From contig CACOBG010000004.1 in NCBI GenBank assembly GCA_902625415.1, positions 65,187 through 129,186 of the forward strand: DNA of 64,000 bases, given 5' to 3'. The translations under genes were made by a program, and so were the position numbers. Position 1 is the stretch's first letter; the number at the start of each line of letters is the position of its first letter. The stretch comes from an uncultured SAR86 cluster bacterium. Lineage in GTDB: Bacteria; Pseudomonadota; Gammaproteobacteria; Magnimaribacterales; AG-339-G14. The notes below the pieces were generated by a model that worked only from the letters and a program-made list of their open reading frames with translations, was not told the origin of the DNA and made no database searches. Below, in pieces: positions 3,356-59,644 of the stretch.

Positions 3356-3517
3356 ATGAAATATTTAATTCTTACCATTGCATTTTTATTAATTTCTTGC
3401 GGAGGAGGTGGAAATACAGTCACTTCTCCTCAACAAACACCACAAGTTCAACAAACACCACAAGTTGAAACCATAACTTTTAAAAATGTTCCAGATGATT
3501 TATCTATATTTGAGTAA
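3356..3517 (+). CDS. Short Gly-rich-anchored lipoprotein (cassette D)
   Basis: A 53 residue protein: MKYL start, hydrophobic core, lipobox LISC with Cys15, then four glycines and a Pro/Gln/Thr-rich tail containing two copies of QQTPQV and ending in an acidic hydrophobic stretch. It should be lipid-modified and, with Gly rather than Asp at +2, sorted to the outer membrane. It stops four bases before the secreted-protein start at 3522. The same arrangement, short CGGGG lipoprotein then large secreted protein, occurs three more times in the window, which makes this tiny frame convincing. Partner or anchor for the large protein is inferred from context only. Confidence 0.7.
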   Translation: MKYLILTIAFLLISCGGGGNTVTSPQQTPQVQQTPQVETITFKNVPDDLSIFE

Positions 3518-3521
3518 TTTT

Positions 3522-5060
3522 ATGAAAACAATATATCTATCTTTTATTTTTTTAGCATCTTCTTTATTTAGTTATGATGTTAATTCAATCCCTAAAAATA
3601 AAGAAGTTTGGACTGATGCCTCTGTTTATCTAAATCATCAGTTCATTCTAATGTCTGGTTTTGGTAGGGCAGCAGATTATCTTTGTCTTTACAGATCCTC
3701 AGATTATAAAAACTTTAGTAATTTAAAAAATAATAATGTCTCAGTTGGCTATAAAGCTATCTTAGATAACCCAGCCTGTGGAACTGCAGAAACCAATACT
3801 CCATGGATTTTTAAATCCGAACAAGCGTCTAGTAATAGCGATCTAGTAATGGAAATGTTTAACCCAAAAGAAACTCTTGATACTAGATCCAAATTAATAC
3901 TCAAAGAAGAAACTAGTACAGCAAATCCATATGGTATTTTAACTCTCGACTATGGCTTATATTTAAAATCTCCTCAAGCAGCTCTTTATGGAGCAACCTT
4001 TGAGTCCACTAGACTAGAAAATAACGATATCGAATTTAAATCAGCTGTTTATGTTGACCAGGTTGTAGTGTCACCTATCTGGAGCGTCGGTCAGGCAAGT
4101 GAATTTTATGGCTCAAAAATCATACATACTCCGAACTCTGGTGGAAAAGGCAGCGTAAGTTCATTTTATTGGAACGGCACCGGAGGAAATAATTTTCCAA
4201 ACGGAACGCCAGCAGCAGTTGGTACAACTAATTTTGAATATAATGAAAATTATGTGAGATACCATAGAGTTGATGGATTAGGTGGGGGGACCACTAACGA
4301 TCGTTGCCTTAAAAGAAATGTACATTGGTCATATGTACCTCATTGGTTTGGTTATGGAATTTATGATGCAAATGGAGACAGACTAGGTGGCGGCTTGAAT
4401 ATTTCTGTTTCTTTTACAGGCAAAGACACAGCAGGTAATGACTTTTCTGGAAATATAATTATTACAAGCGGTAGCTCAGTAAGTATGAATACTGTATGTA
4501 AGAAGGTCAAAGATGGAACACATCTTGAAGGAAACACAGTTTGTCCGGGTACACTTGGACAAACTCATTTACCAGTTGATATTGGTGGTGAGATATATGA
4601 GAACTTCGGATTACTTAACATTCCTGACGGAACAGTTCTTGTAGATTCATTATCTAACGAATATTATGTAAGAGTCCTAAGGCCAAGAAAAGTATATGCA
4701 GAAGAACCTATTTCAAGCTGTGCCTCTTTAACAGTGCCTGCTTCAATGGAGACTCCAGACCATAGTTTTTTTAATCATCCAGAACAAACTATTCCAAAAT
4801 CTGGGGCAATATTGGTAAATAGTTATTCTAGTGAACCTTCAAAAGATATATATGCTTCGGGAAATAAGTATAGTAAAGACCTTGATCAAGATGGAGATGG
4901 AATAGCCAATTACATAGATGCTTTTGCAACTGAACCATTAAAAGCTATAGATGATGACTATGATGGGATCGAAGACTCTTCAGATGAAAATGTTGCTCAA
5001 TTTATCCCTGCGATTGATAAAAAGCTAGAACTGCTTCTTTTTTCAGGCTATGCAAAATAA
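3522..5060 (+). CDS. Secreted protein, half-size member of the large cassette family, with Ca-binding-like tail
   Basis: I take ATG 3522, not the in-frame ATG at 3486, because 3522 begins a clean signal peptide (MKTIYL..., cleavage near FSY) and lies just after the lipoprotein stop; this gives 512 residues. It shares with the three ~1000 residue proteins an early Cys motif (YLCLYRS ... CGT), an NPYGILTLDYG strand, IWSVG, and the block GYGIYDANGDR. The C-terminus has DLDQDGDGIANY and DDDYDGIED, acidic repeats like thrombospondin type-3 / EF-hand calcium sites. It lacks the C-terminal third of the larger relatives. Likely exported to surface or periplasm; function unknown. Confidence 0.7.
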   Translation: MKTIYLSFIFLASSLFSYDVNSIPKNKEVWTDASVYLNHQFILMSGFGRAADYLCLYRSSDYKNFSNLKNNNVSVGYKAILDNPACGTAETNTPWIFKSEQASSNSDLVMEMFNPKETLDTRSKLILKEETSTANPYGILTLDYGLYLKSPQAALYGATFESTRLENNDIEFKSAVYVDQVVVSPIWSVGQASEFYGSKIIHTPNSGGKGSVSSFYWNGTGGNNFPNGTPAAVGTTNFEYNENYVRYHRVDGLGGGTTNDRCLKRNVHWSYVPHWFGYGIYDANGDRLGGGLNISVSFTGKDTAGNDFSGNIIITSGSSVSMNTVCKKVKDGTHLEGNTVCPGTLGQTHLPVDIGGEIYENFGLLNIPDGTVLVDSLSNEYYVRVLRPRKVYAEEPISSCASLTVPASMETPDHSFFNHPEQTIPKSGAILVNSYSSEPSKDIYASGNKYSKDLDQDGDGIANYIDAFATEPLKAIDDDYDGIEDSSDENVAQFIPAIDKKLELLLFSGYAK

Positions 5061-5799: not shown

Positions 5800-7506
5800 T
5801 TAATAGCCGCCACCGCCAGTGTTTCCAAGACCTGCACCTCCGCCACCGCCACTGTTGGCAGCAGTCTGATTTTTAATTAAGATTTTTCCGCCCATACCAG
5901 AATGTAAGCTGCAATAATAATACAATGTGGTAAGAGTAGAACTATTTGGCATCACTATCTCAACATGGGTACTACCCTCCGTAACTCCAGTTGTATATTC
6001 CGTTCCACCTCCATGAGTACCATTTTCTGTGGTAGAAAATTTAAGAGGATGGGCAGAATAAAGTTTAAACTTATAAGTTTCTCCAGCCTCCACTACCAGA
6101 GTTTTTTGTTGCACTGCATCGATAAAGTACCTATTACCTGAACCAGGGCCAACCTGTTTTGGGTTCGCAATCACATTTATTTCATAAGGCGCAGGCTCAG
6201 TATTTGGTGTGGTAGGAACAATATCAGCATGAACAATCTCATTAGCATTTTTTGCAATTACATTCCAAAGATTAGTTTTATTATCACTTCTTATCCAGGA
6301 ATTAAATTCAGTAACAAACGAAGAAAGTGTGTAGTAATCGTCTCCATTTCCATTAAAAAAGGCATCTTCAAAAGCATCTTGCCAACCATTTCCAGATCGA
6401 GCTAACTCAGCTTCTTGCCAATCGGTATAATATTTAGACATTGCTGCATTAAAATTTCTAGGATCTTTGTACCAAAGATAGAGAAAAGCAGCAGTTCCTG
6501 CTTCATAAGCATAATCTCTTGTTGGTGGGTCAGTTACTGCAACGGGAAAATTGAAATTATTTAAAGTATGAGATGCATTAGCCGCAAAGTAATCGTGAGC
6601 ATCATCAAAATGTTCTTTAAATTGTTGGACAGCATTCACTGCGATAGTTTTAAAATTTGAATATTTAGCAGATAAGACGATACCGCCGAAATCCGCACCC
6701 CCCTCTTCTATCCACCATGGAAAATAGGCTGGAATAGAAGGAGAATCTATTAAAGATGGATTTGAAAACCATGCTTTTGGAAGCGAAATAGTTTTCGCTG
6801 CTTCGTTATAAAACTTTATAGAATTTTGATAAACATGAAAATATTCATGGGCAATTATTTTTAAAGAGCCAGCTATTCTTGCGTTATCATTCTCATAAGT
6901 AGCACCCCATACAAGAGATTGAGGAATTTGAATATCAGCTCCATTTGGCGCGGCTTCATGAGAGTAACCACCGCCTGCTGATTCGATTGGTATACCATCA
7001 TAGTTTGTAAGGGCAGTATTGTAATTGCTTCCTACTGGCGCTTGAACAGTAGCAAAGTCTGTATTGTAGGTATCTTCTTCTGTTGCGTTCACAGCATTTT
7101 GATTGTTAGCACCTAAGATAAAGACATTAAGAGGAACAATTTGTCCAAGTGTACGTTTAGAGTAATTGATGAGTTCTTCTATGTAAACTTTCCAAGAGAC
7201 TCCACCAGTAGAAATTATAGTGTCAGTTACTTCGTAGTAATTAAAACAAATTTTTGTATCTTTAAAATTAGTATCCTGCCAAAAAAAAGTGTAGTTGTTG
7301 AAAACTGCATTTGTAGATGTTGGGTCTGGAAAGGTAGTTGTGTACCAAGCTTTTTTACATGCATTTCCTGAATTTAGATTTGCTAAAGCTGGTGTAGAAG
7401 AAGCTGGACTACTGGAGCTATTAGAGGAATAGGAACCCCCGCCTCCGCCTCCACAAGAAACAATTAAAAATAAGGTTGTTATTAAAAGGATAGTTTTATA
7501 ATTCAT
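5800..7506 (-). CDS. Lipoprotein with zinc-metallopeptidase-like domain and C-terminal cupredoxin domain
   Basis: 568 residues. Signal peptide with lipobox IVSC (Cys18) followed by six glycines and a Ser/Pro linker to about 45. A central domain carries HEYFH at 220-224 and WWIEEGGADF at 265-273, the HExxH plus downstream Glu arrangement of gluzincin metallopeptidases. The last 125 residues look like a cupredoxin: His486, Cys532, His535 and Met538 in YYYCSLHSGMGG are the four ligands of a type-1 copper site. The tail is Gly-rich. The joining of a peptidase-like domain to an electron-transfer copper fold on an outer-membrane lipoprotein is unusual. Activity is inferred from motifs; a non-proteolytic role is possible. 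Confidence 0.7.
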   Translation of the reverse strand: MNYKTILLITTLFLIVSCGGGGGGSYSSNSSSSPASSTPALANLNSGNACKKAWYTTTFPDPTSTNAVFNNYTFFWQDTNFKDTKICFNYYEVTDTIISTGGVSWKVYIEELINYSKRTLGQIVPLNVFILGANNQNAVNATEEDTYNTDFATVQAPVGSNYNTALTNYDGIPIESAGGGYSHEAAPNGADIQIPQSLVWGATYENDNARIAGSLKIIAHEYFHVYQNSIKFYNEAAKTISLPKAWFSNPSLIDSPSIPAYFPWWIEEGGADFGGIVLSAKYSNFKTIAVNAVQQFKEHFDDAHDYFAANASHTLNNFNFPVAVTDPPTRDYAYEAGTAAFLYLWYKDPRNFNAAMSKYYTDWQEAELARSGNGWQDAFEDAFFNGNGDDYYTLSSFVTEFNSWIRSDNKTNLWNVIAKNANEIVHADIVPTTPNTEPAPYEINVIANPKQVGPGSGNRYFIDAVQQKTLVVEAGETYKFKLYSAHPLKFSTTENGTHGGGTEYTTGVTEGSTHVEIVMPNSSTLTTLYYYCSLHSGMGGKILIKNQTAANSGGGGGAGLGNTGGGGY

Positions 7507-7639
7507 ATTGTTACCTTAACATTAAAATTTTTATCCTAGGAATAAAACTCCGTTTTAGCTCTTTATTTAACATCGTGGCAATAGGATCAAATTACGATTA
7601 TCATGATATTAACTTTATTTATTGTGCGGAGGCGAAATC

Positions 7640-8497
7640 ATGAATAAAAATTATAAGGAAATTCTTGGAAAACAAATGGCTTATCTTGACTCTGGAGAAG
7701 GCCAATCAATTGTTTTTTTACATGGTAATCCCGCTTCCTCTTTTTTGTGGAGAAATATAACTCCCTCAGTAGAAGGCTTAGGTCGAATTGTAGTTCCTGA
7801 TTTGATAGGCATGGGAGATTCAGAAAAACTGGATGGTATAGATAACCCAGATTACCAATATCATGGACAATATAAATATTTATCAACTCTTTTGGATTCT
7901 TTAGATCTAGGAAATGAAATTAATTTAGTCATACACGACTGGGGTTCTGCTATGGGTTTTCAATATGCGCGAGAAAATCCAGATAGAATCAAATCAATTA
8001 CTTTTATGGAAGCAATCGTGATGCCGCTTACTTGGGATCAATGGCCTGAAAATGCTAGAAACATATTTCAATTAATGCGATCTGATGCCGGTGAAGAAAT
8101 AGTTTTAGAAAAAAATGTTTTTGTTGAAAGAATTCTTTTGAACGATTCGGCTAATGGTTTTACCGAAGAAGAAAAAGCTGAATACATCAGACCTTTTAAA
8201 AATCCAGGCGAAGATAGGCGCCCTACTCTTACCTGGCCAAGACAAATTCCTATCGATGGCTCACCTCAAGCTGTTATTGATGAAGTAACCAAAAATGGTG
8301 ATTTTCACAAAAACTCAAATATTCCAAAGCTCTTCATTAATGCAGATCCAGGAAGTATTTTGACTGGTGACCAAAGAGAGTTTGTAAGAAGTTGGAAAAA
8401 CTTAAAAGAATTAACCGTTAAAGGAAATCATTTCATTCAAGAGCATTCTCCAAAAGAAATAGGTGAGGCAATAAAGGATTTTATTGCATCCCTTTGA
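7640..8497 (+). CDS. Haloalkane dehalogenase, LinB-like (HLD-II)
   Basis: 285 residues. I choose ATG 7640, which follows GGAGG at 7628-7632, over the in-frame TTG at 7622. The sequence closely tracks Sphingobium LinB: HGNPASSFLWRN gives the halide-binding Asn30, VIHDWGS the nucleophile Asp100 and Trp101, FMEAIVMP the catalytic Glu124, and GNHFIQE the His264; the cap segment RRPTLTWPRQIPI is also LinB-like. The enzyme hydrolyses haloalkanes to alcohols in the cytoplasm. It is divergent from the metallopeptidase gene and faces a bidirectional terminator, so it seems to be a single-gene unit. The upstream dehalogenase is of a different subfamily. Confidence 0.9.
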   Translation: MNKNYKEILGKQMAYLDSGEGQSIVFLHGNPASSFLWRNITPSVEGLGRIVVPDLIGMGDSEKLDGIDNPDYQYHGQYKYLSTLLDSLDLGNEINLVIHDWGSAMGFQYARENPDRIKSITFMEAIVMPLTWDQWPENARNIFQLMRSDAGEEIVLEKNVFVERILLNDSANGFTEEEKAEYIRPFKNPGEDRRPTLTWPRQIPIDGSPQAVIDEVTKNGDFHKNSNIPKLFINADPGSILTGDQREFVRSWKNLKELTVKGNHFIQEHSPKEIGEAIKDFIASL

Positions 8498-8544: not shown

Positions 8545-8570
8545 AAAAAGCCTTCCGAATAAGGCTTTTT
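8545..8570. terminator. Bidirectional terminator between convergent genes
   Basis: A perfect 10 bp stem AAAAAGCCTT / AAGGCTTTTT (8545-8554 and 8561-8570) with loop CCGAAT gives a T-tract on both strands, so it can end the dehalogenase transcript and the minus-strand cassette C. Stem and loop are almost the same as the terminator at 12002-12029. Confidence 0.85.
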
Positions 8571-8588: not shown

Positions 8589-11500
8589 TTAGTTTATAGC
8601 ACAAGCTGCATCAACAACATTCAAAATACCATCAACTACACAAGGATTACCATTGTTTATTATTGAAGTTGGCATAGTTCCTATAGAATTTTCTGCAGTT
8701 CCATTTGGACTAATGTCTCTTAAAATAGATTTATCATCAATAGTTATCGAAGAGTCGTAAGGAATTTCTGTTACACCAGTACCGATTAAAGCTAAAGCAT
8801 CATTTTTTGAGATTTGTTTTAAATAGGCATGCCCTCTTAATGGTTTAAGCTTATAGGTAGTTGTAACTCCATTTAAAGTTTCCGTTACTTGAGCTCCGGG
8901 ATGAATTTCAAATTCATCGACTCCTCTTAAGTATCTGACTCTATCAGGATCTCCATCCCAAGGTAATCCAGAAGTAAAGTCAATAAATCTCATCGGGACA
9001 CCTTGTAGTCTTGAACCAATTCCAGCATAAGTAAGTCTGAGCTTTTGACCTCTCGCCTCTTCAGGATATACAATATTCCCATCATTATCCTTTCCGTCAA
9101 TCGGGACAACAAAATCTAAGTTTTTCGGTCTATCAAATACTTTGGACTTGCCAGTGGTTGAATCTATGAGGTCATAGTTTGGTTGAGCTGTAACTCTAAT
9201 GTTATACCAAGTAGTGACTTTACCTTCCCAAAATTTGGAAACACAGTATCTGGTACCAGCACTTTTTTGATTTTGCCCTTGTGTCCAACCAGGACGATAA
9301 TCGTATTCGTCTGCATCGGAAGAATCGTAGACAGAGTAGTTATCACTACATTCGGACTGAGCTAATCCAGTGGCGTCCACAAGAGGTCCATTCCAAAAGC
9401 CCCAAGGCGCACTGTTCATTATCTGGTTTTGCTGATCATTTTTAACTCTTGAACCATTTAAGAGCGCATGCATATCTTTAATCTGATTAAGTTTAGTCAC
9501 GTTATCACTATCAAAAGATAAGACAGTTGAAGCAATTGCTGCCCCTGTACTTCCGGTTGTAGTTATTACTCCTGAATCATCTTCCGAATATCTAATTACT
9601 TGATCTGCTCTAATACCATCTTGCCAAAGACCAACAGCGTTATCTCTGGTCCATTCGGGAGTGCCATTATTATCACGATCATATTCAAGTTGACCTGATC
9701 CATTAACTTCTGTTGATTTTATATACGGGCCTGTATCAAAGTAAGGTTGGTCTAATGGAATTCTATCGGTATTTCCACTAATACTAGTTTTTTCCCAACT
9801 TTGATTATTGTCTGCAGCAATTTGTTCACCTTGTATTATTAAATTATCGTATGTTGTATTTAACCTTTCAGGTGAAAGGCACCTTTCTAGACAATATAAA
9901 TTGTTTGGTAAATCTTGAATTGAAATGTATTCGTTTTTTTCAATTCTTATTCCGTTTGTTTGAGAATTGGAATCAGGATTTTGAAAAGCATTTTCACTGA
10001 CACTTAAATTACTCCTAGAGTCGTGATTCCAAAAATGACCATGTCTAACATAAGTATGCGGAGCGGTACCTGCTACCATAGTTGATAACCACTCAGAATT
10101 TTCAAATTGAATATTAATCGCTGTACTTTGACAAGGACCGGCATTACAGGTTAAACCACCAGTAAAGACAAAACCCCCTTTGGTTGCATTATTGCCATCG
10201 GTTTCAAGGTCTTTGTCATAATAGCCATCATATTCTTGATAAGACGTACAAGCGTTTCCATCTTTATCCGTAGAGTCAAGCCCACAAAATCCTAAATTTT
10301 TAAACTGAGTATCCCAGTGTTGGTCGTTGTGCCACATTCTGATACTGTTTTTGTGGACATCATTAAGAGCAATATAGCTGACCGTTATTTTATCTACCTG
10401 TATAAAGTTTTGTTTTAAGGTATATTCTTTTGATCTTTCGGCAGATGATGCTGTAGGACTCATATTTTTCCATGTGGTTACCTCAGGAGTAAAATAGCCT
10501 CTGTATCTGTGAGGCACATAAACTCCATATTCGCTAGCCCACAAATACATTTTGCCGTTAGGAAATTCATTAGCTCCAGATGCAGTTGCTGAGATTGTGT
10601 GTGGCATATTGGATAGATTAATTCTTTCACCTGTTGTATCGTCATAAAGTCCGTATTCTGTTACTAATCTCAAAGCATCCTCAGGTTTTGACGAATAACA
10701 AACTTCTTCGTATTCAAAAGCATTTGTAGGTATGACATTATCCTTCCAATAGGAAGTCGCATTTGTAATAGGAGAAGCAGGAAAGTATTCTTGCCAATTT
10801 TGAACTGTCTTTGGACCCCATTTGTTTTCTGCAGTTAAAAAATCATAGGCTGGCATACTAGTATTTTGAGCTGCCAAAGGCACAGCAGCGGTCGGGAACT
10901 TGTAGATTAAAAGATCTGCATATTTGTATTTTTTACAATAAAAGTTTTTCGTTTTATTTCGATCAGCATAAAACATGTAACCTACAGACCAAACGGGACC
11001 ATTACCGGTAAAGACAAATCTTTCAAAAATACCCTTAGAAATATTTGTATCGTTGCTATCACCTATAAGTTTGAGATTGTAAGTGTTTGCCCCTGCGTGA
11101 GCTTTGTAATTAATAGTAGTATCTTTTATTTCAATTTGACCCAATCCAGCAGTGATATCTTTCTTATCAAGACCTAGACCAGTAAATGCAGGTTGTATCG
11201 TTGGCCAGGTATCCACTGAAGGCCAATAGGTGTATTCCAATTTTAAATTTCCATATTTAGAGCAATTGACGCCAGGAACTCTGTCTTCCTCAAGTAAAAT
11301 AACACAAGGCACTCTTGATATGGAGTAGTCATAAAATATCTTTGTTGGAAGAAAAACCGGATCTGTACTGCCATGATTTATTTCAGACCAGATTTGAGCA
11401 GTCCAAGGTCCTGCACCATCTTTTTTTACATCAAATACTGAAGTGTTGTAACTTGAGCTTATGACATTTCCAGAATCATCGGAACCTTGAGCAGAGCCAG

Positions 11501-11768
11501 CCCCAGAAAGACTTGATCTCTGAGCAAAATCTTGCGAACACAAAGTTGAATCAGTCAGCACCTTATAAGGTCCTTTGTTAGTTAATCCAGCAACTTTACC
11601 TTTTTCTTTTATAAAACCATTGCTTATAAAACACATATAGATATTTATAAATTTAAGAGAATCATTCAAAGGCTGGCCGTGAACGTAATAATCTTTCGTG
11701 TCTTTTGCAAAGTCAGAGGAAAATAAGGATGTTGAGCAAATCAATAAAAGAATAAATATTTTTTTCAT
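8589..11768 (-). CDS. Large secreted protein of unknown function, cassette C
   Basis: 1059 residues from ATG 11768, two bases after the lipoprotein stop (a TTG six bases upstream is possible). Signal peptide to about residue 18. N-terminal block DYYVHGQPLNDSL with a Cys pair; WSVGYMFYAD near 265; EYGLYDDTTGER near 370; CLERCLSPERLN near 625; KFWEGKVTTWYNI near 850; LTYAGIGSR near 910; C-terminal block IGTMPTSIINNG-PCV. Each block has a counterpart in cassettes A and B. Many Trp, Tyr, Asn and Asp residues and few Lys-rich stretches suggest an extracellular beta-rich fold. No catalytic motif and no known family. It ends at a strong terminator. Confidence 0.75.
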   Translation of the reverse strand: MKKIFILLLICSTSLFSSDFAKDTKDYYVHGQPLNDSLKFINIYMCFISNGFIKEKGKVAGLTNKGPYKVLTDSTLCSQDFAQRSSLSGAGSAQGSDDSGNVISSSYNTSVFDVKKDGAGPWTAQIWSEINHGSTDPVFLPTKIFYDYSISRVPCVILLEEDRVPGVNCSKYGNLKLEYTYWPSVDTWPTIQPAFTGLGLDKKDITAGLGQIEIKDTTINYKAHAGANTYNLKLIGDSNDTNISKGIFERFVFTGNGPVWSVGYMFYADRNKTKNFYCKKYKYADLLIYKFPTAAVPLAAQNTSMPAYDFLTAENKWGPKTVQNWQEYFPASPITNATSYWKDNVIPTNAFEYEEVCYSSKPEDALRLVTEYGLYDDTTGERINLSNMPHTISATASGANEFPNGKMYLWASEYGVYVPHRYRGYFTPEVTTWKNMSPTASSAERSKEYTLKQNFIQVDKITVSYIALNDVHKNSIRMWHNDQHWDTQFKNLGFCGLDSTDKDGNACTSYQEYDGYYDKDLETDGNNATKGGFVFTGGLTCNAGPCQSTAINIQFENSEWLSTMVAGTAPHTYVRHGHFWNHDSRSNLSVSENAFQNPDSNSQTNGIRIEKNEYISIQDLPNNLYCLERCLSPERLNTTYDNLIIQGEQIAADNNQSWEKTSISGNTDRIPLDQPYFDTGPYIKSTEVNGSGQLEYDRDNNGTPEWTRDNAVGLWQDGIRADQVIRYSEDDSGVITTTGSTGAAIASTVLSFDSDNVTKLNQIKDMHALLNGSRVKNDQQNQIMNSAPWGFWNGPLVDATGLAQSECSDNYSVYDSSDADEYDYRPGWTQGQNQKSAGTRYCVSKFWEGKVTTWYNIRVTAQPNYDLIDSTTGKSKVFDRPKNLDFVVPIDGKDNDGNIVYPEEARGQKLRLTYAGIGSRLQGVPMRFIDFTSGLPWDGDPDRVRYLRGVDEFEIHPGAQVTETLNGVTTTYKLKPLRGHAYLKQISKNDALALIGTGVTEIPYDSSITIDDKSILRDISPNGTAENSIGTMPTSIINNGNPCVVDGILNVVDAACAIN

Positions 11769-11770
11769 AA

Positions 11771-11944
11771 TCAATCGTCTATGTCTAAGGGTTGAAAAGA
11801 GCCTACACTTCCTGGCAGTAAAGTACTGGTAGCGTTAGAACTTGCACTAGGGCTTGAACCTGTATTGGAACTCGAAGCTACGGAGCCTCCTCCGCCTCCA
11901 CAAGATATAAGAATTACACAGATCAATACAATTGAATGTTTCAT
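11771..11944 (-). CDS. Short CGGGGG lipoprotein, cassette C
   Basis: 57 residues: MKHS start, hydrophobic core, lipobox LISC with Cys15, five glycines, then a Ser/Thr/Ala-rich linker and a conserved-looking acidic end (LDIDD). GGGAG precedes the ATG. Its TGA is two bases before the ATG of the large secreted protein, with no separate ribosome site, so translation is probably coupled. Expected on the periplasmic side of the outer membrane. Partner role is inferred from four matching cassettes. Confidence 0.75.
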   Translation of the reverse strand: MKHSIVLICVILISCGGGGGSVASSSNTGSSPSASSNATSTLLPGSVGSFQPLDIDD

Positions 11945-11973
11945 AATTAACTCCCAAACAAACTTACTAAAAT

Positions 11974-12000
11974 ATTATAAAAATGGAAAAAAAAATTCAA
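11974..12000 (-). promoter_or_regulatory. Promoter of cassette C
   Basis: On the minus strand TTGAAT (11995-12000) and a perfect TATAAT (11974-11979) are 15 bases apart, with a T-run after the -35 box. It lies between the cassette B terminator and the lipoprotein start, so cassette C can be transcribed alone. Confidence 0.45.
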
Positions 12001-12001
12001 G

Positions 12002-12029
12002 AAAAAAGCCTTCCGAAGAAGGCTTTTTT
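12002..12029 (-). terminator. Terminator of cassette B
   Basis: A perfect 12 bp stem (12002-12013 with 12018-12029) and CGAA loop, flanked by A- and T-runs. Shares the core AAAAAGCCTTCCGAA with the terminator at 8545-8570. Placed 16 bases after the cassette B stop. Confidence 0.85.
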
Positions 12030-12045
12030 TTTGGGTTAACTTATT

Positions 12046-15000
12046 TTAATTTGCAGTAGGTACAGTAGCCAACTGTTCAGTGGTTTCCTTAACCTTACCC
12101 ATAATGACTGATGGATCGCCATTGTTTCTAAGTAAAGTAGGCACTGTCCCAATTTTATTGGCTTCAGTGCCGTTTGGACCCATGTCAGTAAGCTTTGTAG
12201 CCTCAGCTATAGGATTAGCTGACTGTATTGCCGCATAATCTCTGGTCCCTGCGACAACCTTTGTTGCTAAAAATTGATCTCCATTTAATCTTTTCGCATA
12301 CAAAGTAACTGGGCTTCCTGATGAATTATCAGTCAACTGAGATCCATCCGGAATAGTGAATTTATTTACCCAACGGTAACAGTCACTCCAACTACCATTG
12401 ATGTAATCTCCCTCGTAAAGGCCAGTACAGGTATTAAAGAATCCTCCAGGAATATTCCAAAGACTACCAAAGCCTTCAAACTGAAGTTGATAAGTTTTTT
12501 CGGCAATTTCTAAATTTCCTTTTGCAGCTGAAAGACCTGCAGCAGTTCTTTGAGTTGCAGTCCATTGGGTAGCATCCAATTCAAGTCTTTTGGGTTGTTG
12601 AATAGCCACCTTAGTTCCACCTTCAGATAATTGATAAACACCTTCGGTCATGATTCCAATTTCAAAATACGTAGTAACATCCCCACCCCAAATTTTTTCA
12701 TTGCAATATCGATCTTCACTCATCTTCGCGGTAGGTTGAGGAGGCGTTTGAGCATCTAAATATCTTGGGTGATCAACATCGTATAAAAGATATGTGCCCC
12801 CTACTTCATCTTTAGGACATTCAAAAGTATGAATAGGAATTATATCGTCGCCTGGCTTTCTTGCAGGAACCAAGAAGCCGGTTCTTGCAGACCAACTAAC
12901 ATATTCCAAGCTATAAGGGTTTGCAGCTGTCCAATCTGGACGTTTGACCTGCATTCCATAAAGTTTCCAAGTTACAGGTTCTTTAAGAGATGCCGTGGCG
13001 GTAGCCATTGCAGATGTATTGGCATCGGAAACTGTCATTTCATTAGCACTAGCAGCTGCTTGATAATAAATTTTCCCTGAATCTATAATGTAGTCGGTAA
13101 TATCTGATTGTGCTAAACCATCCAGTTCTCCAAAAGACTCTCCCACTCCAGGATCAAAATCCCAAAACAAATGATTGGTATCCCAAATGGAATCGTATTG
13201 CACTTGATAGAGATCATCATTATTAGGATCATTGTCAGAAACTCTAGTTACGGCATCGGTTAGTCTTGTGTTGTATAAATCAGGTTTTAAACATAAATTT
13301 ATGCAAGCAAGCCTATCTGCTGGATCTGAAGTATTTGTATCACCATCAATATCCACAGATGCAAGAAAGGTAGCTAAGTCAGCAACAGAAATTCTGTCTA
13401 TCTGTTCGTTTTTAATTCCTATTCCAGCAGCTACAGAAGTATGATTTGCTGTTTCAAATGCCTCTCCAGGAATTTGAAAATAAGTCCAAATATCAGGAGA
13501 CCAAGCACCTAATTGTTCAATGTATCCTGCATTTATTTCCATAGCTCCTGCATAAGCAGAACCATCAATAACAATTGGAGATGAAAGTTGTACTTCCGGA
13601 TCACCATTTTTTGACCATTTCATACCGTGCGTAAGGGTAAGGGCCCCTTCGTTTCCAGTTCCACCGTCTTTATCCCAGTAGCCAATGTAACTGTAAAAAC
13701 AATTTTCATTTGCAGCATCATCGTAATGCGACCAAGTGCATTCAACTCCTCCATTAGCTGCAGTTGAATTTGTGAGCGTCGCCCAGGCAGCTTTAGCTGA
13801 AGCTTCCCACGGCTCACTAATATCCAATTTAATTTTATGGATACTATCCAAATTTCTGTAAGAAGTAGAAAATTTAGTGATCTCTAAATAGTTTTTTGAT
13901 AAATCACATTCAGTAGTTGAACATTTGTAGTCTCCTCCTGATTGACCATCATCTCTTTTCCATTTTCTAGTGGTAGGATCAATTCCTGCCTCTTGAGCAT
14001 AATAGTCTACCCAAACCCCCCAATAATCTGCCCAGCCGAATAAATCGTCTCCTGACAAACTATCCGATCTGATAGGAAAGCTTCCGGCACTTTCTCCATG
14101 CCTTGTCCCATCGGCATTGTAAATTCCATAACGAAAGACATTGGTAAATGCATTTGCTTTATCGGTGTCGTAGCAAACCTCTGCAGTTGAAATACCTGTA
14201 TTTGCTAAATTTATAGGTGCTCCCTGTAAAGATGTGCCTTCTGTAGCTCCCTTAGCGTTTGGATCAGCGAAGTCATAAAAGCTACCTATCATGTCTGCAA
14301 ATGATGATTGTTCAGCTGAAACAGCTTTTTCACAATAATACTTCCCAGAATCGCTTACTTCAAAGGCATAAAATACTTTTACTTCTCCCATTTGTGTAGT
14401 GTTAGCGCCACTCGTCATCCAAGTTTCATCCCAAGTTTCAGTTGAATAAATTCCAGTTGCTCCATCTGCTGAAAACGTAATGGTAATTTCCTGAGAGCCC
14501 ATGATGCTTTCTCTAAAGGTTATGGTTTGACCATTGGCTTCTAGGAAACCATTACCGAGACTGAAGTTTTGAAGTTCCATTTTCTCTTTTTGCGTCCTTC
14601 CAAAATCATCGACTGCGATTAATGAATCTGTCCCTGCAATATCTAGTGGTAAACCAGCAGCCATTCCCATGAAAGAATCGGCTACAGCTTTAGCATCTGC
14701 ATACATCGTGTAATTCATTTTGAAGTCACCAAACTTAGAGTTCTCACTTGCACTGGCTGTTTGTTCGTATTTTAAATAGACCGTGGCATCAAAAGGCAAA
14801 TCATCTCCACCACCACCTTGGGCTCCCGCTCCCGCCATAGAATCGGCAAAACCAATTGCTTGTGGACCATCTCCAGCCCCAGATCCTTTTAGTTGAATCC
14901 ACACACTCCCAAACATGGGTGAAGAACCATCAGCTTGAGTCACTTTGACATATGCAGTATTCCCTTCTTTAATATTTTGCGATGAACTACCACCACTATT

Positions 15001-15318
15001 TGAGTTACCACCCCCACTACTTCCACCTCTTGCTTGAGAAGCTTTTTGTTGGTCGTCTCCTGAAGCTTTACCAAAGGAACAATCATCTTCAAAGATTGTT
15101 GCTACATAAGTTTCTTTATTTACGAATTCGGCAGGTTTGGTATTTGCCAAATAACAAAGTAATAAATTGACTCTTTCAAGAGACTCATTAACTCTATTAC
15201 CTGAGACAAAAAAATCTTGTTCGTCAGTAATATAGGCACCTGAAGTTGGTACTTGAGTAAAAGATAATTGCGTAAAAAATATTGTTGAACTAAATACAAA
15301 TAATTTAAAAAGTTTCAT
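12046..15318 (-). CDS. Large secreted protein of unknown function, cassette B
   Basis: 1090 residues with AGGAG before ATG and a signal peptide cut near residue 21. It opens with DFFVSGNRVNESL and a Cys pair (LLLCYLA ... EDDC), then a Gly/Ser-rich low-complexity stretch at about 90-120. Further blocks: KFGDFKMNYTMY near 205, RYGIYNADGTRHG near 405, CINLCLKPDLYN near 680, KIWGGDVTTYFEI near 880, FEGFGSLWNIPGG near 970, and IGTVPTLLRNNGDPSVI near the end. A YINGSWSDCYRWVNKF segment is shared with cassette A only. Rich in Asp, Ala, Gly and aromatic residues. No known domain seen; probably surface-exposed or released. Confidence 0.75.
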   Translation of the reverse strand: MKLFKLFVFSSTIFFTQLSFTQVPTSGAYITDEQDFFVSGNRVNESLERVNLLLCYLANTKPAEFVNKETYVATIFEDDCSFGKASGDDQQKASQARGGSSGGGNSNSGGSSSQNIKEGNTAYVKVTQADGSSPMFGSVWIQLKGSGAGDGPQAIGFADSMAGAGAQGGGGDDLPFDATVYLKYEQTASASENSKFGDFKMNYTMYADAKAVADSFMGMAAGLPLDIAGTDSLIAVDDFGRTQKEKMELQNFSLGNGFLEANGQTITFRESIMGSQEITITFSADGATGIYSTETWDETWMTSGANTTQMGEVKVFYAFEVSDSGKYYCEKAVSAEQSSFADMIGSFYDFADPNAKGATEGTSLQGAPINLANTGISTAEVCYDTDKANAFTNVFRYGIYNADGTRHGESAGSFPIRSDSLSGDDLFGWADYWGVWVDYYAQEAGIDPTTRKWKRDDGQSGGDYKCSTTECDLSKNYLEITKFSTSYRNLDSIHKIKLDISEPWEASAKAAWATLTNSTAANGGVECTWSHYDDAANENCFYSYIGYWDKDGGTGNEGALTLTHGMKWSKNGDPEVQLSSPIVIDGSAYAGAMEINAGYIEQLGAWSPDIWTYFQIPGEAFETANHTSVAAGIGIKNEQIDRISVADLATFLASVDIDGDTNTSDPADRLACINLCLKPDLYNTRLTDAVTRVSDNDPNNDDLYQVQYDSIWDTNHLFWDFDPGVGESFGELDGLAQSDITDYIIDSGKIYYQAAASANEMTVSDANTSAMATATASLKEPVTWKLYGMQVKRPDWTAANPYSLEYVSWSARTGFLVPARKPGDDIIPIHTFECPKDEVGGTYLLYDVDHPRYLDAQTPPQPTAKMSEDRYCNEKIWGGDVTTYFEIGIMTEGVYQLSEGGTKVAIQQPKRLELDATQWTATQRTAAGLSAAKGNLEIAEKTYQLQFEGFGSLWNIPGGFFNTCTGLYEGDYINGSWSDCYRWVNKFTIPDGSQLTDNSSGSPVTLYAKRLNGDQFLATKVVAGTRDYAAIQSANPIAEATKLTDMGPNGTEANKIGTVPTLLRNNGDPSVIMGKVKETTEQLATVPTAN

Positions 15319-15328
15319 AATTATTCTC

Positions 15329-15493
15329 CTAATCTACTGCTTGAATCTTTTCTTGTACTTGATAGCCTTGTGCAGCTCCTCCAGACCCAGAAGATCCTGC
15401 AGACCCTGATGCAGCTGACGAAGAAGAACCCCCGCCTCCTCCACAAGCAAATATAAAAAATAAAATTGGTACTAATAATAATGATCTAGACAT
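15329..15493 (-). CDS. Short CGGGGG lipoprotein, cassette B
   Basis: 54 residues from ATG 15493, which has GGAGAG just upstream; an in-frame ATG 75 bases earlier would give a non-signal N-terminus and was rejected. Hydrophobic core, lipobox IFAC, five glycines, a Ser/Ala/Gly linker and a tail ending VQEKIQAVD. Its TAG stop overlaps the AGGAG ribosome site of the large gene ten bases downstream, which ties expression of the two together. Confidence 0.75.
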   Translation of the reverse strand: MSRSLLLVPILFFIFACGGGGGSSSSAASGSAGSSGSGGAAQGYQVQEKIQAVD

Positions 15494-15539
15494 TTGTTCT
15501 CTCCTTAAGTGATCCTTAAATAAAAGATACTTCTTTATA

Positions 15540-15568
15540 AAAATACTCCCATTTAAAAAAAAACTCAA
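15540..15568 (-). promoter_or_regulatory. Promoter of cassette B
   Basis: Minus-strand TTGAGT (15563-15568) and TATTTT (15540-15545), 17 bases apart. Located just after the cassette A terminator. Same -35 box and spacing as the promoter at 3320-3348. Confidence 0.4.
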
Positions 15569-15577
15569 TGAAGAAAT

Positions 15578-15608
15578 AAAAAACCCTTGTTAAAAACAAG
15601 GGTTTTTT
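15578..15608 (-). terminator. Terminator of cassette A
   Basis: A 13 bp perfect stem (15578-15590 with 15596-15608), loop TTTTA in the transcript, A- and T-runs on both sides. It lies 17 bases past the cassette A stop. Confidence 0.85.
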
Positions 15609-15624
15609 TGCCAGTAAATAATAT

Positions 15625-18600
15625 CTATGGAGCTACTATAGTCTCGCCGTGAATAACTGAAGGCTTGCCATCATTTAATATTGTTGTCGGCTGCGCACCA
15701 ATAAAATTAGTTGCAGATGGATTTGCTAGATCAATGAGCACACTATCAGCAGGTATATTTGCTGCTGTACTGGTATAGACTCTAGCAGCCAAAGCATTTC
15801 TTTCGCTATCAGTAAGAATTTTTAAATACTCATCACCGCGTAGCTGCCTAATTTTTATATCATTTCCTGGATTAGAGATATTTGTCAGAGTAGTTCCGTC
15901 TGTAAGAGAAAACTCATGAACGTATCTCAAACAATCACTCCATGCACCATTATGATATCTACCTAAAATAGTATTTTCGCAATGATTGTAAACTTTACCC
16001 GGGAAATTATGTAAAGCACCAAAACCTTCAAATTTGAGTTTTACTTTTCTGCCAGTGTAATCTGTTTTGTCAGTCCCGGTGAAGTTATAGGTTGCTTTGG
16101 TGTCATTGATTTCAACCTCAAATGTTTCAGGCGCCATAATGTTAGCAAATTGATTCCTAGTTTCATTATAGACTTTATATCTGGGTCTTTGCACAACATT
16201 AATTTCATAAGAATCCACCTCTCCTCTGTAAAGTTTATCTAGACAGTAGTAGGTAGTTGCCGCTTGCAATAATGAAGTATTTTGAGAAGCGAAAGACTTA
16301 ATTCTTGGAGTGTAACCTCTGGCATCTGAACCTTCTGTTGCACATGCAAGATTACTGAGATCTGTAGAATCGATTAATTCCATGTGATAAGCCCAACCAA
16401 ACCTTTGTGAATGGTTTGATCTTAAAACGTTGTATGTAAGGCCAACATTCTGACCTGCTCCCATAGTATTGTCTTTTTCCCAATATTCATACTTATCAAG
16501 TTTATTTTCATAACTACCAGAATCTATTTTTTGCTGGTTAGCGGTTGTCCAGTCCAGTGCTTGACTTGCAGTAGAATCTGTAATTACTCCTGAGCCATCC
16601 ACTGTATATACTCTCGTTTCAACTGTTCCACCAATCCAATGCCAATCTCCTGCATACATACGAAAATCACCTGAGTCATCATCATCGTAAGAATCTTGAC
16701 TTGTGCTTCCGGAAGCATCGTAATAAGCATCTACTTTAAGATAAGGACCGACACTGTAATAGGGAGTTACATTCAATGGCCCAGCCGGTACGGGAGGATC
16801 AGTTGCATCGTAAGCAGTAAAAGCGGCTGCTAGTGCTGTGTTCATTAGAGGCTCAGAGAGACATCTTTCTAAGCACGTAAGATTTGTAGGTAAATCTGTA
16901 GCAGCAATTTTGGTTCTAGTTCTTTGTTTTACGGCATTTGCATTAGAATCCGAAGTAGGATTTTGAAAAGAGGTATATCTAATATTGTATCCTTGGTTTG
17001 CGTCTGGATCCCAGAAATGCATGCCTCTATTCCAGCCAGAGCCATCGGTCATATTTGTAACCCAATTTGCAGCTGTAAATACAATAGGAGTAGTCAAAGT
17101 AACATGTACTGGCGGATTTTGTCTCCAGTCCATTCCTTCAGTTAAAGTAAAAGTAACTGTCCCGCCACTGGCGGTAATTTTTCCTGAGTATTCTGGGCAA
17201 TTGCCATCTGTTGCATTACAAGCACCTGTAATAGGCACATTCAAAGCATTTAATTGATTCGCCCAATTGGTTGAACCGGAAGTATCGTCTTTGTAATGTT
17301 GTGTATACCACTGAACACTTGTTCCAGCTAAAGATGCTAGAGTTTTACTATTCGTAGATTTTTGCCAAATCTCGTAATAATCTTTTTTCAGAGAATATTC
17401 ATCGTTATCATTATTATCTCTTTCGTTCACAAATAACGTAGAGTCAGTAACAAAGCCTCTATCTCTTTGGTCTACGTGCGTTCCCCAATAACTCGCATAT
17501 GCATATGCTGAACTATTTGTACTTGGATTAACTTCTTTGGATTTCAAAGACATTGCATTTACTGCTGAAGAACTTGCTCCTGAATACCTATCACCTGCAG
17601 AAGTATAAGTTCCATACTCATATACAATTCTTTTGGCATCGCTAGCTTTGGTGCTCCAACATTCTTCCCCAGTAACTGTTTGGGCAGAACCTCCATCGAG
17701 CTCAAGATAAGCTGTGGGTGGAGATGTCAATGCTCCCGAAATCGCAGTTGCAAATTGCGAGGAGCTTAAAGCTGCCCCGACGTTTTGAAATACTCCAGGA
17801 CCTGCTGGAGTAACCTTTTGGGCTGAAACAAATTCTTGACAGTAGATACCAGTAGTTTTGTTAAGAAAAATCTTATGACTTAACTGATATGTTTCAGAAT
17901 CTCCACCAAAAGGACCATAAGTTCCAACAGAAACCATATAACCATGTTGGGCATCATCATTTGATAAGTCAGCGTAAAGAGATCTAGATGGCTCCATTGC
18001 ACCACTTTGTTTGTATTCTATCGTCTTACCAAGTGTTTTGAGATAACCTTTCTCCAACTGGGTTCCATCTGGAACAGGATCTATTGGAAATCCAGGGATG
18101 CTTTGTTCTTTCGCATCTGTTCTGGATTCTGCAACAACTTCGAAATTCATCGTGAAATCTCCAAAGGGGCTATCGGTATCAGGATCTTTTGAAAGCACTG
18201 TTTTTACATATGCCTTAGCTTTGAGTCCCTCCATCAGAAGCTCAACCCAACCCTTACCTTCGATCGTATTTCCAACGATAACATTTTCATAAACTCCAGG
18301 TGTATAAACAACATTATCTACTTCGTTGGTTTGAGCAGTTCCACCACTACTAGCACTTGAACCCGTGGCTGCAGCTGAATCTGAAGCAGCATCGGCTCCA
18401 TCAGCTTTTTCACAGGATTTTTCATCTACCAAAGCTCTATAAGCTGATTTATCAATAAAGTCTTTAAAATTTGTTTTAGCAACAAAACATAGAAGAAAAT
18501 TTGGCATTTCCATTGCATCGTTAGCTAAGATGCTTGGAACATAAAAATCAACTATGTTTGCATCATCTTCATAAGCAGCGGTATAAACAAAACCCCCAAA

Positions 18601-18639
18601 AAATAGAGGCAGCATTAAAAATATTTTTTTAAAATTCAT
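15625..18639 (-). CDS. Large secreted protein of unknown function, cassette A
   Basis: 1004 residues from ATG 18639, chosen because AAAGGAG precedes it and it starts a signal peptide (MNFKKIFLML, cleavage near YTAA); a start 39 bases upstream lacks both. Blocks shared with B and C: DFYVPSILANDAM with a Cys pair (LLCFVA ... KSC), a Ser/Ala linker at about 80-105, FGDFTMNFEV near 160, EYGTYTSAGDRY near 345, CLERCLSEPLMN near 600, KLYRGEVDSYEIN near 810, FEGFGALHNFPG near 875, and IGAQPTTILNDGKPSVI at the end. Probably exported and disulphide-bonded. No recognised domain. Confidence 0.75.
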   Translation of the reverse strand: MNFKKIFLMLPLFFGGFVYTAAYEDDANIVDFYVPSILANDAMEMPNFLLCFVAKTNFKDFIDKSAYRALVDEKSCEKADGADAASDSAAATGSSASSGGTAQTNEVDNVVYTPGVYENVIVGNTIEGKGWVELLMEGLKAKAYVKTVLSKDPDTDSPFGDFTMNFEVVAESRTDAKEQSIPGFPIDPVPDGTQLEKGYLKTLGKTIEYKQSGAMEPSRSLYADLSNDDAQHGYMVSVGTYGPFGGDSETYQLSHKIFLNKTTGIYCQEFVSAQKVTPAGPGVFQNVGAALSSSQFATAISGALTSPPTAYLELDGGSAQTVTGEECWSTKASDAKRIVYEYGTYTSAGDRYSGASSSAVNAMSLKSKEVNPSTNSSAYAYASYWGTHVDQRDRGFVTDSTLFVNERDNNDNDEYSLKKDYYEIWQKSTNSKTLASLAGTSVQWYTQHYKDDTSGSTNWANQLNALNVPITGACNATDGNCPEYSGKITASGGTVTFTLTEGMDWRQNPPVHVTLTTPIVFTAANWVTNMTDGSGWNRGMHFWDPDANQGYNIRYTSFQNPTSDSNANAVKQRTRTKIAATDLPTNLTCLERCLSEPLMNTALAAAFTAYDATDPPVPAGPLNVTPYYSVGPYLKVDAYYDASGSTSQDSYDDDDSGDFRMYAGDWHWIGGTVETRVYTVDGSGVITDSTASQALDWTTANQQKIDSGSYENKLDKYEYWEKDNTMGAGQNVGLTYNVLRSNHSQRFGWAYHMELIDSTDLSNLACATEGSDARGYTPRIKSFASQNTSLLQAATTYYCLDKLYRGEVDSYEINVVQRPRYKVYNETRNQFANIMAPETFEVEINDTKATYNFTGTDKTDYTGRKVKLKFEGFGALHNFPGKVYNHCENTILGRYHNGAWSDCLRYVHEFSLTDGTTLTNISNPGNDIKIRQLRGDEYLKILTDSERNALAARVYTSTAANIPADSVLIDLANPSATNFIGAQPTTILNDGKPSVIHGETIVAP

Positions 18640-18661
18640 AATTTCTCCTTTAAAAACAATC

Positions 18662-18829
18662 TTAAGTTGTGCCAACAAGATCTACCTGACTTTTTAAGTT
18701 TCCAGTTGGGGCACTACCACTTCCTGAACCAGAAGATCCAGATCCTGAGGAACCTGCAGCTGCAGTTCCTCCACCACCACAAGAAACAATTAATAAAATA
18801 ATAAATACAAAAGCTGTTATTTTTCTCAT
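18662..18829 (-). CDS. Short CGGGG lipoprotein, cassette A
   Basis: 55 residues with GGAGAG upstream of ATG. Hydrophobic core, lipobox IVSC with Cys17, four glycines, Ala/Gly/Ser linker with repeated SG pairs, and a short hydrophobic end (QVDLVGTT). The stop is 22 bases before the large gene start. A TATACT -10-like box lies about 25 bases before ATG, with no clear -35. Same cassette logic as the other three copies. Confidence 0.7.
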   Translation of the reverse strand: MRKITAFVFIILLIVSCGGGGTAAAGSSGSGSSGSGSGSAPTGNLKSQVDLVGTT

Positions 18830-59489: not shown

Positions 59490-59644
59490 ACCGAAGTTAA
59501 AGGGGTCTAGTGGGTTGACTAGCACAGGCGAAAAACCCTTCTCCCTGCAGGTGGCGTAATTTCTTACGTCTTCTCACCCTTCTCCTTCTATTCTTTAGCT
59601 TCCCTTTTACCGTCTCGAGTTAGTAAATCTTTCACTAAAGCTTA
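59461..59644 (-). ncRNA. Unassigned structured small RNA, about 180 nt, with own promoter and terminator
   Basis: No frame fits this gap of more than 300 bases. The minus strand has a promoter at 59651-59678, then about 180 nt ending in a strong terminator (59461-59489). Inside are: a closing stem pairing 59602-59611 with 59496-59504 (one mismatch), a 5 bp hairpin with GAAA tetraloop at 59555-59568, and a 5 bp hairpin CTAGT/ACTAG at 59507-59522 whose loop CAACCC could pair with GGGT stretches nearby. Several GGA motifs lie in single-stranded parts. It does not match 6S, SRP, RNase P or tmRNA signatures I know. Confidence 0.55.

Follow-up and report, generated by a model that had tools for sequence, protein, structure and literature searches.

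The window analysed here is a 64,000-nucleotide stretch of one contig from an abundant marine bacterium, a SAR86-cluster gammaproteobacterium with a genome of 1.22 Mb in 25 contigs. Its minus strand carries three units, each made up of a lipoprotein gene, a gene for a large protein with a Sec signal peptide, and a terminator-like hairpin, in that order. We refer to the small protein as the anchor and to the large one as the head. In all three units, the anchor has the same layout of lipobox, C-GGGG, Ser/Gly-rich linker, and short conserved tail. The features are as follows.

18662–18829, minus strand: unit 3 anchor lipoprotein, 55 aa, with lipobox VSC, GGGG, Ser/Gly linker, and tail APTGNLKSQVDLVGTT
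18665–18712, minus strand: conserved C-terminal tail of the unit 3 anchor, from alignment with the tails of relatives
15625–18639, minus strand: unit 3 head, secreted, 1004 aa; it has a signal peptide, matches the family profile, and contains 12 Cys in the body
15578–15608, minus strand: terminator-like hairpin of unit 3
15329–15493, minus strand: unit 2 anchor lipoprotein, 54 aa, with FAC-GGGGG, Ser/Gly linker, and tail GAAQGYQVQEKIQAVD
15332–15379, minus strand: conserved C-terminal tail of the unit 2 anchor
12046–15318, minus strand: unit 2 head, 1090 aa, secreted, with 14 Cys in the body
12002–12029, minus strand: terminator-like hairpin of unit 2
11771–11944, minus strand: unit 1 anchor lipoprotein, 57 aa, with ISC-GGGGG, linker, and tail LLPGSVGSFQPLDIDD
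11774–11824, minus strand: conserved C-terminal tail of the unit 1 anchor
8589–11768, minus strand: unit 1 head, 1059 aa, secreted, with 16 Cys in the body
8545–8570, minus strand: terminator-like hairpin of unit 1

A first-pass annotation, made from the sequence alone, had described three minus-strand units of a lipoprotein and a large secreted protein, and this description held in full. The sizes it gave (54–57 aa for the lipoproteins and 1004–1090 aa for the large proteins) were correct, a terminator-like hairpin was found 3′ of every one of the three units as claimed, and the ordered blocks it listed, including the C-terminal IG-x2-PT-x3-N-x-G-x-P-x-V, are common to the three heads. Pairwise identity among these heads is 26–27% over their length. 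What the annotation overlooked was a fourth, smaller cassette at 3356–5060 on the plus strand:

3356–3517, plus strand: anchor lipoprotein, 53 aa, with ISC-GGGG, Pro/Gln linker, and tail TITFKNVPDDLSIFE
3522–5060, plus strand: short head of 512 aa, with 41% identity to that of L050

The tail of this fourth anchor is also present in the relatives L039, L050, and L051, and a profile-profile comparison matched its short head to the head family (Prob 97, E 9.5e-11). Three other features of the window were recorded. A 568 aa lipoprotein (5800–7506, minus strand) has C-GGGGGG and the HExxH-type motif HEYFH. Its C-terminal region, YYYCSLHSGMGG, is cupredoxin-like and resembles the cupredoxin anchors of relatives, but the docking tail is missing; possibly the protein is another T2SS surface lipoprotein. 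Genes for alpha/beta-hydrolases (haloalkane-dehalogenase-like) adjoin cassettes in several genomes, at 7622–8497 on the plus strand of the window and in the flanks of L039 and L050, an association that is probably due to chance. An IMES-5 RNA (RF02995) was found at 59492–59640 on the minus strand with 153.9 bits.

The coding sequences of the units are under selection. We obtained dN/dS values of 0.09–0.14 for the large head genes and well under 1 for the small lipoprotein genes, and at the 3′ end of the small genes the final ∼16 codons showed 0–1 nonsynonymous versus 6 synonymous changes between species. For instance, the unit 2 tail is identical in the L046 orthologue despite 6 synonymous changes (0 nonsynonymous), and orthologues of the unit 3 anchor within the genus have the same tail type. 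Because dN/dS is low in both large and small genes and the tail codons are nearly free of nonsynonymous change, the units are not chance ORFs. With synonymous sites diverged and the tail peptides almost unaltered between species, the anchor tails are under strong purifying selection.

We then assessed whether anchor and head stay together, using 75 relatives with readable upstream DNA. A lipoprotein was adjacent or fused to the head in 73 of them: the head lay directly 3′ of a lipoprotein gene in 63/75, and in the remaining ten the lipobox, linker, and tail were found on the N-terminus of the head itself (L153–L158, L160, L161, L164, and L165, the last two being counted as fused on a reading of their N-terminal sequences). 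The pairing of the genes and the natural fusions are thus direct observations, and the "dedicated small partners" proposed by the first-pass annotation were borne out. That annotation had also stated that its reading would be refuted if the small lipoprotein were absent beside homologues, and such absence was seen in only 2/75. The sole clear exceptions are two mutually orthologous heads with neither an adjacent nor a fused anchor, L058:2450-5653 (G017) and L089:1495-4722 (G048), which may possibly use one shared anchor encoded elsewhere.

The element common to the anchors is the last ∼16 residues, while the body ahead of this tail varies. The tails can be aligned across split forms (LVPEQIDPVQT, SIPEKIEVVEA, and LIPTTVSVVDA) and fused forms (LVMPSNISVIA and LQMPSSMSVVS), so that the conserved tail is itself an observed feature. 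Three types of body were found: a Gly/Ser linker alone; a cupredoxin-like domain showing the pattern C-x2-H-x2-M (L039, L044, L047, L075, and L077; the L047 anchor gave a weak Copper-bind match); and, in SAR86 family f3, long lipoproteins with Ig/cadherin repeats, which gave matches to Big_9 and Cadherin. Distances between tails also correlated with distances between heads (Mantel r 0.84, 0/5000 permutations, n = 29, L140 left out). Shared ancestry alone could possibly yield this correlation and the conservation of neighbours, and we consider the fusions and swapped anchor bodies to be the stronger evidence for pairing. They also bear on one alternative, namely that the two proteins act separately and are merely co-transcribed. 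There are no interaction data for head and anchor, and adjacency can persist in streamlined genomes. Nevertheless, ten natural fusions and a tail conserved across anchors with unrelated bodies make this alternative very improbable.

The heads themselves gave no match above cut-off against Pfam, NCBIfam, or PDB sequences. Two further claims of the first-pass annotation, that no known domain is visible and that the family is unrecognised, therefore held for the libraries searched. Weak matches to MRJP and protein disulfide-isomerase were at chance level and were rejected, as was a low-complexity match between the unit 2 anchor and the NCBIfam lipo-invert tail (20 bits versus a cut-off of 37). 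The Cys count in the head body was even in 14 of the 15 heads counted, as would be expected of disulfides outside the cytoplasm. The positions that do not vary among 37 heads hold C, G, Y, W, P, N, or V. Cys, Gly, aromatic residues, and Pro predominate, and no catalytic set is obvious; we infer that this composition is more in keeping with a scaffold for binding than with an enzyme. Some toxin systems consist of a large, diversified secreted protein and a small neighbour, and on this reading the head would be a toxin and the small lipoprotein its immunity or partner protein. However, both parts occur fused in one chain, which is hard to square with immunity, no toxin domain was found in Pfam or NCBIfam, and the C-terminus, which tends to vary in polymorphic toxins, ranks with the best-conserved parts of the head. 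The toxin reading, one of the options named in the first-pass annotation, found no support and is all but ruled out.

AlphaFold2 models were obtained for two fused chains. The read-through fusion of the SAR86 relative L050 (37 sequences) gave a well-folded head (mean pLDDT 77, pTM 0.67) and left the anchor tail unplaced (pLDDT ∼25). For the natural fusion L161 (23 sequences; mean pLDDT 80, pTM 0.76), tail residues 31–46 were ordered (pLDDT ∼87 for residues 31–40) between disordered segments 1–29 and 51–62, as expected of a docked peptide. DSSP assigned no strand to this tail. Docking of the tail is therefore a model prediction for the fused form only, resting on the single L161 model, and the contact surface was not resolved. 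The N-terminal half of the head is predicted to be a long antiparallel beta-meander. Foldseek returned no E-value under 0.001 for the predicted heads, and the best Z scores in a VIA structure search were 7.6 and 8.5, over mixed proteins. TonB receptors, ApoB, OspA, and glycoside hydrolases all scored weakly and none was clearly related, so that there was no clear match to an OspA-like or an outer-membrane beta-barrel fold.

The models matter for a second alternative, in which the lipoprotein is a chaperone or secretion pilot whose tail escorts a head that is later freed as a secreted protein. That the lipoprotein is small and encoded next to the head would be consistent with a dedicated chaperone, and binding of the tail may be only transient, as it was unplaced in the SAR86 model. 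Against this, in the natural fusions the lipid anchor is permanently built into the chain, and the large multi-domain bodies of some anchors are unlike chaperones. We consider a transient helper unlikely.

To place the anchors among lipoproteins of the host, we compared the residues following the lipidated Cys. A lipobox pattern is present in all four anchors of the window and in the fused relatives. Among 20 predicted lipoproteins in ∼448 kb of the host genome, C-GGGG was found in 4/4 tail-bearing anchors versus 1/16 others (hypergeometric p 0.001); a few relatives deviate, such as L048/L049 with C-GKDP. In Acinetobacter, a 2025 study showed that surface export of lipoproteins by the T2SS needs GspN and a motif just after the lipidated Cys, either Gly/Ser GGG, located at P2′–P4′, or Asn/Asp (PMC12802150). 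An ordered gsp operon is indeed present on the contig of the window, about 41 kb ahead of the window start (GspD in host genome G000, contig C4, 528 bits, with ordered gsp genes). Its last gene, a 239 aa ORF at the gspN place, is gspN-like on a weak match only (27.9 bits versus a cut-off of 29.6); in G002 and G012, of the same genus as the host, GspN scored above cut-off. No GspN match was obtained in SAR86 family f3, although the anchors of this family still carry C-GGGG. Outside SAR86, GspD scored above cut-off in 30/31 family-positive versus 17/28 family-negative genomes (Fisher p 7e-4), the negatives being of similar size and no correction being made for phylogeny. In G254, gspG...K-L-M-N is followed immediately by a cassette in the same orientation. 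Since SAR86 genomes without cassettes have a T2SS too, the system is not diagnostic for cassettes within the order.

While the operon itself is observed, the T2SS route of the cassettes is inferred, and a surface location is inferred from the motif and the co-occurrence. It remains possible, though less likely, that anchor and head stay in the periplasm, away from the surface, with GGG as a Lol-avoidance signal: in Pseudomonas the same motif after the lipid Cys has been read as a signal for Lol avoidance and inner-membrane retention (cited in PMC12802150), and disulfide-bearing heads would suit the periplasm too. Against this stand the co-occurrence with the T2SS and the gspN-adjacent cassette, the match of the anchors to the motif required for surface export in Acinetobacter, and the very long Ig/cadherin spacers of some anchors, which suggest a reach past the cell.

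Taken together, these results lead us to favor, by a modest margin, the interpretation that each cassette encodes a split T2SS surface lipoprotein consisting of a small anchor and a docked, large binding head, where docking, export route, surface location, and binding are all inferences. Each cassette would yield one surface molecule tethered to the outer membrane and built from two chains. The small lipoprotein would be the anchor subunit, lipidated at Cys and carrying the Gly-run sorting motif C-GGGG, followed by a spacer, either flexible or modular, and by a C-terminal peptide of ∼16 residues that docks onto the head. The head, Sec-exported, Cys-rich, and mostly beta, would fold in the periplasm and bind the anchor tail; both would then pass through the T2SS, with its GspN-like component, to the cell surface, where the head would stay tethered. 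Its role there is inferred to be most likely external binding, by substrate capture or adhesion, rather than catalysis. The first-pass annotation had left function open among adhesin, substrate capture, toxin/partner, and scaffold, a range that we narrow to an anchor-plus-head surface protein. A bolder reading, which we regard as rather doubtful, is that a short C-terminal peptide code on interchangeable anchors (plain linker, cupredoxin, or cadherin stalk) sets which giant head each one holds, that different heads are displayed in parallel via the T2SS, and that the anchor subunit bears the sorting signal for a head lacking one.

The proposed molecule resembles known T2SS surface lipoproteins such as InvL of Acinetobacter baumannii and the pullulanase PulA of Klebsiella (PMC12802150). 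Both have a lipobox, a Gly/Ser-rich motif right after Cys, and a large folded head, and in both cases the genome encodes GspD and has a gspN-like gene within its gsp operon (a weak match in the host); the natural fusions are also single chains, like the known lipoproteins. The window cassettes differ in that anchor and head are separate genes, forming one chain only in the ten fusions, in that there is no common sequence family and the anchor body is exchangeable, and in that T2SS dependence is inferred. Because anchor and passenger are not in one chain, we describe the cassettes as a variant rather than a member of this type. The multihaem proteins OmcA/MtrC of Shewanella are likewise T2SS-exported and lipid-tethered at the surface, as proposed here, but the window heads have no haem-binding family match or sequence relation to them. 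OspA of Borrelia, also a surface lipoprotein, and other beta-meander proteins bear a weak resemblance to the L161 model in its N-terminal beta-meander (VIA Z 6–7 for OspA, with alignments often starting at the tail). Z stayed below 8, Foldseek gave no E-value under 0.001, and sequence similarity is lacking; the OspA resemblance may be merely a common arrangement.

In the open-access literature searched, we found neither these proteins nor split T2SS lipoproteins described. T2SS-exported surface lipoproteins are already known; what is new is the split layout, the conserved tail, and the exchangeable anchor bodies. The cassettes are concrete candidate cargo for the T2SS retained by SAR86. If the anchor truly delivers a separate head via the T2SS, this would be a lipoprotein sorting signal acting in trans. 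In that case, the short tail-head pairs would be small enough for direct testing and perhaps for use as a tethering tag.

The head family, absent from the libraries searched, occurs across Pseudomonadota. By profile search, 41 of 203 genomes of the SAR86 order have a member, and the unit 3 head was matched in 20/41 near relatives (the host's own genome counted). Outside the order the family is sporadic, with 26/369 sampled genomes of the class positive (two of the 26 being SAR86) and 8/249 in a sample of the phylum, a count that includes the host itself; a carrier identified by name is Thiothrix (L152). Viral contigs, phages, and plasmids yielded no relatives of the queried heads, and hence there is no sign of a phage origin. 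Gene neighborhoods outside SAR86 had no conserved neighbor except the single gsp operon case. In a tree of the heads, to be read cautiously for its several long branches, each of units 1, 2, and 3 clusters with its orthologues in other species, and another genus (L047b) is represented in the clade of unit 2. This implies that the array is an old paralogue set, and the earlier suggestion of a diversified system rather than a simple recent duplication held.

Variant architectures were also seen. Heads of SAR86 family f3 (L052, L091, L140, L146, L149, and L150) reach about 1500 aa and contain an additional insert, and their anchors are the Ig/cadherin-repeat lipoproteins. In another lineage of the phylum (L204–L208; G587, G590, G581, G715, and G617), a large N-terminal region precedes the head in one chain, with the tail-like segment LGTNVSVVDNK lying between the two, for a total of 1500–1830 aa. 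Lastly, L188–L198 are distant relatives of roughly 900–1020 aa that retain the tail, YTLPTEISAVPA, and the N-terminal domain, and they likely form a sister branch.
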